From contig NZ_JADYUD010000015.1 of the NCBI RefSeq assembly GCF_021531595.1, positions 1 through 48,668 of the forward strand: a DNA stretch of 48,668 bases. The letters run 5' to 3'. This stretch comes from Fusobacterium perfoetens (GTDB lineage Bacteria > Fusobacteriota > Fusobacteriia > Fusobacteriales > Fusobacteriaceae). Below the pieces are notes generated by a model that was not told the DNA's origin, did no database searches, and saw nothing but the letters and a program-made list of their open reading frames with translations. Shown here one piece after another: positions 37,338-40,658 of the stretch. The first letter of the stretch is position 1; each line of letters starts with the position of its first letter. The position numbers were made by a program, and so were the translations under genes.

Positions 37338-37760
37338 ATGGAATACAAAAGTAAAGATATAGCAAGAGCTGCAATAATGCTTGCAATGTCTACCCGTGAA
37401 GAAGAAATGGAACTTAAAGAGAGTTATAAAAAAACTGGAATAAAAAGTGCTGCTGTTGATATAGGAGGAGATATTATTCAGTCTATTTCAAAAATTCTTG
37501 AAAGAACATTGGTAGCTTCAAAAAGAAATGGAATTGTAAAAGATTCTCATGTTTATGATGGAGCTATAACTGGAGCAACAAGAGAAGCCATAGCACAAGT
37601 AATGAATAAAGCTGCAGGATTTAATATTGGAGGAAAAATAGGAATTGCAAGATACAGAGAACACCTTTCTGTATGTATTTTTCTTACAATAGGAATGTTC
37701 CGTTTAGATGATGTTGTAATAGGTCTTGGACACAGAGCAATTCCTGTTGATGAAAATTAA
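37338..37760 (+). CDS. HutP-family RNA-binding regulator
   Basis: HutP of B. subtilis is a hexameric RNA-binding protein that binds L-histidine and Mg2+, then UAG-type triplets, to control transcription termination in the hut leader. This 140-aa protein has the family's features: the SHVYDGAITGATREAI segment at about residues 72-87 resembles the SHALYHATMEALHGVTRGQ region of HutP, and the C-terminal VVIGLGHRAIP resembles its FGVGINHI end. Compared from memory, only one of the two metal-ligand His of that helix seems kept, and the third His position looks like Asp, so ligand specificity may differ. GGAGG lies 8 nt before ATG 37338; the open frame upstream to 37278 contains the promoter and is not translated. 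A leader with UAG repeats starts about 50 nt after its stop. Confidence 0.8.
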   Translation: MEYKSKDIARAAIMLAMSTREEEMELKESYKKTGIKSAAVDIGGDIIQSISKILERTLVASKRNGIVKDSHVYDGAITGATREAIAQVMNKAAGFNIGGKIGIARYREHLSVCIFLTIGMFRLDDVVIGLGHRAIPVDEN

Positions 37761-37778
37761 AATTTCTTAATTTTTTAA

Positions 37779-37807
37779 TTGACAAAAGAATAGGATTGGT
37801 ATATAAT
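37779..37807 (+). promoter_or_regulatory. Consensus promoter of the TrpX-type transporter operon
   Basis: TTGACA (37779-37784), exactly 17 nt, TATAAT (37802-37807): a perfect sigma-70 consensus. The expected start site is about 37814, which leaves a leader of about 200 nt before the first start codon. Confidence 0.93.
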
Positions 37808-37813
37808 CGCTCT

Positions 37814-37961
37814 AACAGTAGTACCACAAAAGTGGAAATGTAGAATAGTAGAAGTTTTAAAAGTAAAAAATTTGTAGAATTGTAGAATAGTAGGAAAAAT
37901 AATATAATATTTGTTACAGTACATAAATTTTAGATGTATTGTATTTATTTATATAATAACT
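37814..37961 (+). promoter_or_regulatory. UAG-repeat leader, putative binding site of the HutP-like protein
   Basis: TAG triplets lie at 37819, 37841, 37846, 37849 (cluster 1) and 37875, 37883, 37888, 37891 (cluster 2), plus 37931. The 13-mer TGTAGAATAGTAG occurs exactly twice (37839-37851 and 37882-37894). In cluster 2 the triplets at 37875, 37883 and 37891 have an 8-nt period. A 5' hairpin CCAC-AAAA-GTGG (37824-37835) follows the start site. A 10-bp hairpin joins 37915-37924 with 37934-37943 around a loop that ends in TAG. GTAAAAA (37863-37869), between the clusters, could pair with TTTTTAC in the 5' arm of the terminator, a weak candidate antiterminator. Confidence 0.75.
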
Positions 37962-37998
37962 GCCTTTTTACAATTCGTAAAAAGGCTTTTTTATTTTT
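37962..37998 (+). terminator. Leader terminator (attenuator) upstream of the transporter genes
   Basis: A 10-bp perfect stem GCCTTTTTAC/GTAAAAAGGC with loop AATTC and a TTTTTTATTTTT tail. It lies between the promoter and the first transporter gene, with no gene to end upstream on this transcript, so it must act as a conditional attenuator. Confidence 0.92.
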
Positions 37999-38017
37999 AA
38001 AACAAAAGGGGGAAAAA

Positions 38018-38995
38018 ATGAGAAACTTAAAAAGTAGAACAGTAGGATTTGTAGCCACAACATTACTAACAGCAGGAATCTTTCTTATGCAGTGCACACC
38101 TTTAAAAGCAGCAGAAAGATTTGTAATAGGAATAAGTCAATTTGCAGAACATCCTGCACTTGACGAAGTAAGAAGAGGTTTTGAAGATGAACTTAAAGCT
38201 CAGGGTATAGAAACTGACATTATTTATAAAAATGCTCAAGGTGATACAGGAGTAGCAGGAATCATTGCACAAAAATTTGCAGCAGATAAAGTTGATTTAA
38301 TTTTCGGTATAGCAACAATTTCTGCACAAACTGCTAAACAAGCAACTGATACCATACCTGTACTTTTCAGTGCAGTTACAGATCCAGTTCATTCTCAGCT
38401 TGTTAATTCAATGGAAAATGTAGGAGGAAATGTTACAGGAACAACTGATGCCAGTCCAATGGACAAACAACTTGCTCTTTTCAAACAGCTTGATTCAAAT
38501 ATTAAAAAAATAGGAATTATATACAATACAAGTGAATCAAACTCTGAAATTCAAGTTGCTCAGGCAAAAGAAATTGCCGAGTCTCTTGGAATGGAAATTA
38601 TAGCTGTTGGAGTCAATAATATAAATGATATTCCTCAGGCTGTAAATTCCCTAGCTTCAAAAGCTGATGCTTTGTATGCTGTCACAGATAATATTGTAGC
38701 TTCAGCTGCAGGACTTATAGCTAAATCAACAATTGAAAGAAAAATTCTTTCAATAGCTGCAGAGGAAGGACCTGTTAAAGGCGGACTTCTTATGACTGAT
38801 GGACTTAGTTACTATGAACTAGGAAAACAAACAGGAGCTATGGCAAAAAAAATCCTTATTGATAAAGTTTCTCCTAAGGATATGCCTGTTGAAAGTTTAA
38901 AAAATACAACAAAAATAGTTAATGAAAATACAATGAAAAAATTAAAATTAGATAAAGAAAATCCAGCTTTTGAAGGAGCCATATTTATAAAATAA
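38018..38995 (+). CDS. ABC transporter substrate-binding protein, ABC_sub_bind (TrpX) type
   Basis: Captures the substrate outside the inner membrane for the importer encoded downstream. The fold is a periplasmic-binding protein of the PF04392 kind: FVIGISQFAEHPALDEVRRG, then VDLIFGIATISAQTAKQAT, VLFSAVTDPVHSQLV and KIGIIYNTSESNSEIQ. The streptococcal TrpXYZ tryptophan transporter has this architecture; tyrosine and other amino acids are also possible. The signal peptide (about residues 1-31) has a Cys at 26 preceded by LMQ, a poor lipobox, with an alternative signal peptidase I site near KAA, so anchoring is uncertain. AAGGGGG lies 8 nt before ATG 38018 (325 aa); the open frame to 37934 runs through the terminator and is not translated. 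Confidence 0.88.
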   Translation: MRNLKSRTVGFVATTLLTAGIFLMQCTPLKAAERFVIGISQFAEHPALDEVRRGFEDELKAQGIETDIIYKNAQGDTGVAGIIAQKFAADKVDLIFGIATISAQTAKQATDTIPVLFSAVTDPVHSQLVNSMENVGGNVTGTTDASPMDKQLALFKQLDSNIKKIGIIYNTSESNSEIQVAQAKEIAESLGMEIIAVGVNNINDIPQAVNSLASKADALYAVTDNIVASAAGLIAKSTIERKILSIAAEEGPVKGGLLMTDGLSYYELGKQTGAMAKKILIDKVSPKDMPVESLKNTTKIVNENTMKKLKLDKENPAFEGAIFIK

Positions 38996-39021
38996 AATCT
39001 ACAAAAACAAGGAGCTTAATT

Positions 39022-39867
39022 ATGAATTCACTTATCACTATATCTGTTGAACAAGGACTTATATTTGCCGTTCTTGCAATGGGAGTATTTATAACATATA
39101 AAATATTAGATTTTCCAGATATGTCTGTTGAAGGAACTTTCCCTTTAGGAGCATTTATATTTGCAAAATTTGCAACTGCAGGAATAAATCCCATTTCAAG
39201 CACACTTCTTGCTTTTGCTTTTGGTTCTCTTGCAGGAATTATTACATATTTTCTTCATATTAAAATGAGAATAGCATCTCTTCTTGCAGGAATCCTTACA
39301 ATGACAATACTTTATTCAATAAATCTTAGAATAAATGGAAAAGCAAATATACCTCTTTATAATAATGGTTCTGTTTTTGACTATGGAAATAAAATTCTTG
39401 TTCTTATAGTGATAGTTCTTATAATAAAATTTCTTATGGATTTGTTTTTAAAAACAGAGATAGGATATCTCCTTATAGCAACAGGAGACAACGAAACACT
39501 TGTTAAATCTCTTGGAGTTAGCTGTGATAAATTTAAACTTTTAGGACTTGTTCTTTCAAATGGAATTGTTTCAGTAAGTGGAGCTTTAATGGCTCAGTCT
39601 CAAGGATTTTCAGATATTAATATGGGAACATCTATAATTGTTTCTGCTCTTGCTTCTATAATAATAGGAGATACAATATTAAAAAAATCAAACAGAATAA
39701 AAGGAACTACCAGAGCAATTCTTGGAGCTATAAGCTATAAACTTATCGGAGGGCTTGCTATAGATTTAGGTTTTGCACCTACAGACTTAAAAGCCATAAG
39801 TGCACTAATTGTAATTGTATTCATAGGATACAATAATATGTCATTTTTAAATTTTAAAAAAAGATAA
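39022..39867 (+). CDS. ABC transporter permease, branched-chain-type (TrpY-like)
   Basis: Integral membrane permease (BPD_transp_2 type), about eight helices in 281 aa. The stretch KILDFPDMSVEGTFPLGAFI near residues 27-46 and the region GVSCDKFKLLGLVLSNGIVS-like near 165 are typical of the permeases that accompany ABC_sub_bind receptors. The motif with GALMAQSQGFSDINMGTSII lies near 190-210. AAGGAG is 8 nt before the ATG. It lies 26 nt after the receptor gene and 14 nt before the ATPase gene, so the three genes form one operon. Confidence 0.9.
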   Translation: MNSLITISVEQGLIFAVLAMGVFITYKILDFPDMSVEGTFPLGAFIFAKFATAGINPISSTLLAFAFGSLAGIITYFLHIKMRIASLLAGILTMTILYSINLRINGKANIPLYNNGSVFDYGNKILVLIVIVLIIKFLMDLFLKTEIGYLLIATGDNETLVKSLGVSCDKFKLLGLVLSNGIVSVSGALMAQSQGFSDINMGTSIIVSALASIIIGDTILKKSNRIKGTTRAILGAISYKLIGGLAIDLGFAPTDLKAISALIVIVFIGYNNMSFLNFKKR

Positions 39868-39881
39868 AAAGGAGTATTAAT

Positions 39882-40658
39882 ATGCTGACAATAAAAAATC
39901 TTAAAAAAAGTTTTAATGAAGGTACAGAAAATGAAGTAAATATTTTTAATGGTTTTAATCTTGAAGTTAAAGAAAGTGAATTTGTAGCTGTACTTGGTTC
40001 TAACGGATGCGGAAAAAGTACTCTTTTTAATCTTATCAGCGGTTCTCTTAAGGATAATGGAGGAAATATTATTTTAGGAGGTACTGATATAAGTAAAATG
40101 AAAGAAGAAGAAAGAGCTGCTAAAATAGGAAAAGTTCATCAAGATCCTTCAAAAGGAGTTTCTCCTTCTCTTACTATTTTAGAAAATCTTTCACTGGCTG
40201 CTAAAAAAAGTGAAAAATTTTCTCTTAGAAAACTTATAAAAAAAGATAATATTAGTAAATTTACAGAACTTTTAAAAGAACTTGACTTAGGACTTGAAAA
40301 TAAATTAAATACTCAAGTAAAATTTCTTTCAGGAGGACAAAGACAAGCTCTTTCACTTATTATGGCAACTTTAAAAAAACCAGAACTTCTTCTTCTTGAT
40401 GAACATACAGCTGCCCTTGATCCTAAAACTTCTAAAATGATAATGGTAAAAACAAAGCAGCTTATTGATAAACAAAACATTACAGCTATGATGATTTCAC
40501 ACAACTTAAGAGATGCTGTTAAATACTCTGATAGAATAATCATGCTTGATAAAGGAAGAGTTATTCTGGATGTAAAAAGCAAAGATATAACTGAAGGAGA
40601 ACTTTCAAAGGTTTACACTGCAAAAATGAACAGAGATATAAAAGTTATGGCAAGTTAA
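39882..40658 (+). CDS. ABC transporter ATP-binding protein (TrpZ-like)
   Basis: Cytoplasmic ATPase of the importer. Walker A GSNGCGKST at residues 39-47, the Q-loop region KVHQDPSKGVSPSLTI at about 84-99, signature LSGGQRQ at 149-155, Walker B LLLLDE at about 169-174 and the H-loop MMISHNL at about 204-210 are all intact. It is 258 aa. It closes the operon and is followed by an intrinsic terminator. Confidence 0.94.
   Translation: MLTIKNLKKSFNEGTENEVNIFNGFNLEVKESEFVAVLGSNGCGKSTLFNLISGSLKDNGGNIILGGTDISKMKEEERAAKIGKVHQDPSKGVSPSLTILENLSLAAKKSEKFSLRKLIKKDNISKFTELLKELDLGLENKLNTQVKFLSGGQRQALSLIMATLKKPELLLLDEHTAALDPKTSKMIMVKTKQLIDKQNITAMMISHNLRDAVKYSDRIIMLDKGRVILDVKSKDITEGELSKVYTAKMNRDIKVMAS

Follow-up and report, generated by a model that had tools for sequence, protein, structure and literature searches.

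What reads the closely spaced UAG triplets found in Fusobacterium perfoetens between a gene of the HutP family and an ABC importer of three genes, and with what effect on the genes behind them? The window (the whole 48,668-nt stretch of DNA analysed here) carries these triplets in a leader in which the 13-nt sequence TGTAGAATAGTAG occurs as two exact copies, at 37839-37851 and 37881-37893 (all window features described below are on the forward strand). The original prediction had recognized this exact repeat with its UAGs, but placed the second copy one nucleotide too far downstream (37882-37894, 43 nt apart), the actual start-to-start distance being 42 nt. In the explanation that we consider likely, the UAG repeats are the sites of the HutP-like protein encoded immediately upstream, and the liganded protein would terminate transcription within the leader and repress tyrosine genes; the physical binding, the identity of the ligand and the sign of regulation are the parts that we infer.

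The UAG clusters and their genomic setting

The TAG triplets start at 37841, 37846 and 37849, and again at 37875, 37883, 37888 and 37891. They form cluster I (TGTAGAATAGTAG, 37839-37851), which has three UAGs and is found, with variation, in 11 of 11 leaders, and cluster II (TGTAGAATTGTAGAATAGTAGG, 37873-37894), which has four near-invariant UAGs; the two clusters, both proposed sites of the HutP-like protein, are separated by 23 nt. The spacers of 0, 2 and 5 nt are those originally described, and the additional TAG noted at 37875 is indeed found there. A near copy of the repeat with one mismatch (TGTAGAATTGTAG, 37873-37885) overlaps the second exact copy. A possible cluster III (TAGAACAGTAGGATTTGTAG, 38035-38054) lies within the first codons of the binding-protein ORF, and similar clusters were also found in G078 and G036, with weaker ones elsewhere.

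Apart from T runs, TGTAGAATAGTAG is the sole exact close 13-nt repeat (within 112 nt) across the 48.7-kb window, and the seven TAGs in 37841-37893 exceed those of any other 55-nt stretch on either strand, the next separate stretch having five. Since the ten TAGs of the whole intergenic region are only marginally above the mean of 5.9 in mononucleotide shuffles (P about 0.06), and the four window matches obtained with two mismatches allowed are unremarkable (18 of 100 shuffles), the decisive evidence is conservation in relatives and not the TAG count. A chance repeat in AT-rich intergenic DNA would be in keeping with so modest an excess over shuffles, but can practically be dismissed, as it is already refuted by the conservation of the repeat in 11 homologous leaders and its recurrence at further gene classes. 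The original prediction had staked itself on conservation in close relatives, and the cores are strongly conserved in those that bear HutP.

The gene upstream of the array (37338-37760) encodes a protein of 140 residues that matches the HutP family PF09021 with 157.8 bits against a curated cut-off of 25 (profile positions 1-128, E 2.1 × 10−46). Its sequence similarity to Bacillus subtilis HutP is low: plain phmmer against the PDB sequences gave no match, a profile search of the same sequences gave a weak HutP match, and hhalign of the family profile with B. subtilis HutP was likewise weak (E 0.045, probability 1%). A fold model was therefore required. The AlphaFold2 model, built on a three-sequence alignment, has a pLDDT of 86.3 and a HutP fold, and all ten PDB matches at E ≤ 0.001 in the fold search are HutP (1vea, TM 0.78).

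Downstream of this gene is a perfect sigma-70 promoter (TTGACA-17 nt-TATAAT, 12/12, 37779-37807), both hexamers of which are invariant in seven aligned leaders, with an inferred transcription start near 37814 and a leader of about 204 nt. The leader ends in an intrinsic terminator, GCCTTTTTAC-AATTC-GTAAAAAGGC-TTTTTT (37962-37992), which is conserved in all leaders and shows a G-C to A-U exchange at the base of its stem. The importer genes that follow encode a substrate-binding protein of predicted tyrosine specificity (TyrX, 38018-38995; PF04392, E 2 × 10−68), a permease (39022-39867; PF02653, E 4 × 10−23) and an ATPase (39882-40658; PF00005, E 9 × 10−30).

Among the seven species of its genus examined, hutP was found in the window species only, and the window binding protein shares 86% identity with its counterpart in G078, a genome from another genus. 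From these two observations, the hutP-importer cassette (37338-40658) may have been acquired horizontally. A leader peptide was also considered and rejected, since judging from the sequence the UAGs stop all reading frames.

Competing helices in the leader

Computation shows a terminator and a pairing that competes with it. In the predicted fold of the full-length window leader (MFE z-score −5.2), cluster II pairs with the terminator 5′ arm. The 5′ arm of this antiterminator (37877-37894) overlaps cluster II and pairs with 37960-37976, which by both the fold and the duplex prediction serves as the antiterminator 3′ arm and also as the terminator 5′ arm. The duplex, consisting of 11 bp, an internal loop and 3-4 bp, is predicted in all 11 importer leaders, and in each of them is stronger than the terminator hairpin (−11.1 to −15.1 versus −8.8 to −13.0 kcal/mol) in a thermodynamic competition of helices that ignores co-transcriptional kinetics.

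When all leader UAGs were computationally forced to be unpaired, a 9-bp terminator stem formed in 11 of 11 leaders. In G074, blocking cluster II alone led cluster I to pair instead, and blocking all leader UAGs gave the terminator; the NhaC-type leaders of G074 and G075 behaved in the same way under UAG blocking. For the NhaC leader of G077 the terminator is already present in the free MFE structure, as it is for a truncated window leader.

The UAG letters are also retained where base pairing does not call for them. At a G-U pair the G of a UAG is G in 14 of 14 sequences, whereas non-UAG purines facing U vary between A and G, and another UAG keeps its U and A inside the internal loop, where pairing is impossible. 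Such retention beyond pairing is the trace that a dual constraint, pairing plus protein recognition, would be expected to leave.

Co-occurrence with HutP and an eight-nucleotide register

A HutP match is present in 52 of the 96 genomes from the order. Genome sizes and gene content suggest that this order is Fusobacteriales, and they also underlie genus labels such as Leptotrichia-like. The core TAG-N2-TAGTAG was found upstream of importer homologues in 30 of 45 HutP-positive genomes and in none of 22 HutP-negative ones (Fisher P 4 × 10−8), an association that is partly confounded and whose P value is inflated by shared descent. Usually a single importer paralogue per genome bears the core. In the window species hutP and the array are linked and could have come together; the functional link is argued from the fact that the core at the importer is retained across genera where hutP is unlinked, namely in the Leptotrichia-like group, G036 and G078. 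The reading of the site as a HutP one, put forward originally, thus gains support both from the adjoining HutP-family gene and from the way in which the arrays track HutP in the 96 genomes.

Two arrangements recur at the importers. Family f1 has the order hutP, promoter, array, terminator and importer; most of its species keep hutP linked, whereas in G036 and G078 it is unlinked. Family f4 has the core directly against the importer Shine-Dalgarno sequence, as in TAGTAGGATAGTAGGAGGAAACAAATG; its g21 species carry an adjacent hutP, and its other genera carry the gene elsewhere in the genome. The strict core is absent upstream of the importer homologue in a further 15 HutP-positive genomes, three of which have looser variants.

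The extended pattern GTAG-N4-GTAG-N4-GTAG, searched in the 96 whole genomes, occurs in 22 of 52 HutP-positive and 2 of 44 HutP-negative ones (P 1 × 10−5), with 35 sites in 24 genomes and a reversed control that is nearly empty save for one genome. The short patterns TAGRANAGTAGG and TAGNANAGTAG did no better genome-wide than their reversed controls and are not taken as evidence. The genomes of Phascolarctobacterium and Christensenella, which have HutP relatives, contain no period-8 GTAG array. HutP is also present, with no recognized array at the importer or at DAHP synthase, in L298-L301 and in genera g5, g11, g12 and g14.

An undescribed riboswitch or tRNA-sensing leader, in which the antiterminator and terminator would be switched by RNA only and the co-occurrence with HutP would be historical, is very unlikely. 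The competing helices are well conserved, as such a switch would have them, but leaders of the Shine-Dalgarno type carry the UAG core without a terminator-type leader, the core tracks hutP even when the two are unlinked, and the UAG letters are conserved beyond pairing. Nor did scanning against Rfam, with either the whole window or just the leader, return anything other than a tRNA and one sub-threshold chance match; for T-boxes in particular there was no match, whether at the gathering threshold or at E ≤ 1.

In canonical HutP sites the triplet spacer is 4 nt, a period of 7. Here UAG pairs at a distance of 8 number 112 against 3.6 expected, and at a distance of 7 there are none, in regions that were partly chosen by period-8 patterns; in ten attenuation leaders that were not so chosen, the counts are 33 at period 8 and 0 at period 7. 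In G071 the in-between UAG is missing but three UAGs remain at period 8, and in G056 the middle triplet is CAG. These variants and the pair counts suggest that the essential register is the 8-nt period, and the view that the spacing differs from that of both HutP and TRAP sites is borne out.

Effector, sign of regulation and wider regulon

The ligands of the binding protein's closest solved relatives are tyrosine (for CD0873), phenylalanine and tryptophan (PMC6816091). Glu249 and Tyr265 of the window protein match the tyrosine-specificity residues Glu263 and Tyr279 of Clostridioides difficile CD0873, and Glu and Tyr are found at these sites in all readable UAG-controlled binding proteins. Among unregulated paralogues, the first specificity position is mostly occupied by Ile, Val, Thr, Asn or Asp; exceptions include G057 and G025, as well as the second tandem gene of Leptotrichia-like operons. 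The importer thus probably takes up tyrosine, as far as pocket residues can tell. DAHP synthase had no match in the window species, consistent with a dependence on uptake.

Related arrays precede other genes as well. GTAG arrays stand before DAHP synthase in G008, G021, G040, G046, G055, G085, G086, G091 and G093, and at several of these loci prephenate dehydrogenase TyrA and AroB or EPSP synthase-like genes follow; most Leptotrichia-like genomes have UAG arrays upstream of DAHP synthase, in some of which one UAG is replaced by CAG. An identical attenuator design precedes an NhaC-family transporter in G074, G075 and G077. Arrays also precede an AGCS amino acid symporter in G029, G036, G070, G071, G073 and G078, and this is the sole target found in G029 and G073, which have HutP and no close importer homologue. 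With the Glu/Tyr pocket residues and TyrA among the targets, tyrosine is the simplest and most likely choice of effector, although it could possibly be another aromatic amino acid.

The same repression circuit responding to L-histidine or another non-aromatic compound is unlikely. HutP itself binds histidine (PMC7430163), and the present family has invariant residues of its own in His131-Arg132; the targets, however, are aromatic or tyrosine genes. His73, His77 and His138 of HutP are residues that we take to coordinate the metal. The first two align with invariant Gly74 and Gly78 in two independent alignments, both weak by score, and the third falls outside the tool alignment, an ungapped extension by hand giving Val126. 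HutP's histidine and Mg residues thus appear not to be conserved in the HutP-like protein.

With tyrosine as the effector, the proposed mechanism would run as follows. Transcription would begin near 37814, and without effector cluster II would pair with the terminator 5′ arm, so that the importer genes would be transcribed. When the effector is plentiful, the liganded protein would hold the UAGs of clusters I and II single-stranded, the terminator would form and uptake would be shut down. Translation may be repressed as well, through cluster III close to the start codon. Importer mRNAs of the second family would instead have their Shine-Dalgarno region covered by this protein, and the DAHP synthase-TyrA operons, the NhaC-family transporter and the AGCS symporter would come under the same control through their related arrays. 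The 23-nt gap between the clusters resembles the approximately 20 nt between two clusters of three NAG triplets in HutP RNA (PMC7430163), which makes it possible that the two faces of a hexamer bind the two clusters.

Because cluster II is the antiterminator 5′ arm, and because the f4 core abuts the Shine-Dalgarno sequence, binding should repress, so that the sign is probably inverted relative to B. subtilis HutP; end-product repression also fits genes of uptake and synthesis. Classical antitermination, in which the liganded protein on the UAG clusters would promote read-through, shares with the B. subtilis system the protein family, the fold and two clusters some 20 nt apart (PMC7430163), but we regard it as unlikely. 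Binding to a cluster that itself forms the antiterminator should favour the terminator, a core at the Shine-Dalgarno sequence does not suit read-through, and it would be senseless for excess tyrosine to induce its own synthesis through DAHP synthase and TyrA.

The proposed system therefore resembles the hut operon of B. subtilis in its protein family, predicted fold, leader with an intrinsic terminator and two triplet clusters, here with three and four UAGs, but differs from it in the period, the histidine and metal residues, the predicted repression in place of antitermination, and targets in aromatic uptake and synthesis instead of histidine degradation. Its logic and its aromatic amino acid genes recall attenuation of the B. 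subtilis trp operon, where TRAP holds (G/U)AG triplets single-stranded, blocks the antiterminator and lets the terminator form (PMC3913778); in all 11 leaders the triplet site overlaps the antiterminator, and computational blocking gives the terminator. In contrast to the 11 triplets with 2-3-nt spacers of a TRAP site (PMC3913778), each cluster here has three or four, with spacers of 0, 2 and 5 nt and the outer ones 5 nt apart. The protein is unrelated to TRAP, for whose gene (TrpBP, PF02081) the genome has no match. TRAP also has a second mode of action, the covering of a ribosome-binding site, which the proposed Shine-Dalgarno occlusion would share. Homologous aromatic amino acid importers of the TrpX type are likewise under leader control, by T-boxes, for example in Streptococcus suis (PMC9382623), but a T-box is a tRNA-sensing RNA.

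In the literature searched, HutP is tied to one operon and one ligand, and there was no report of HutP-like proteins beyond the hut operon, or of HutP being connected to fusobacteria in this way; here, in a different order, the family appears to regulate both the uptake and the synthesis of tyrosine. Taken together, we lean cautiously towards an undescribed HutP branch that would sense tyrosine and repress an entire tyrosine regulon, acting by TRAP-like attenuation and Shine-Dalgarno occlusion in an 8-nt register, with ligand, sign and RNA register all changed. If this is true, the branch and TRAP, whose folds are unrelated, have converged on the same regulatory task, and the arrays lend themselves to testing how evenly spaced triplets are read by a protein hexamer.

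In G008 (L294) and G086 (L288), whose assemblies are 93% and 88% complete, an array is present at DAHP synthase and no HutP was found. Within the trp operon of G012 (L290), GTAGAATTGTAGGAGGGTAG overlaps the trpD Shine-Dalgarno sequence; a HutP-like protein might have a tryptophan target here, or the overlap may be due to chance.
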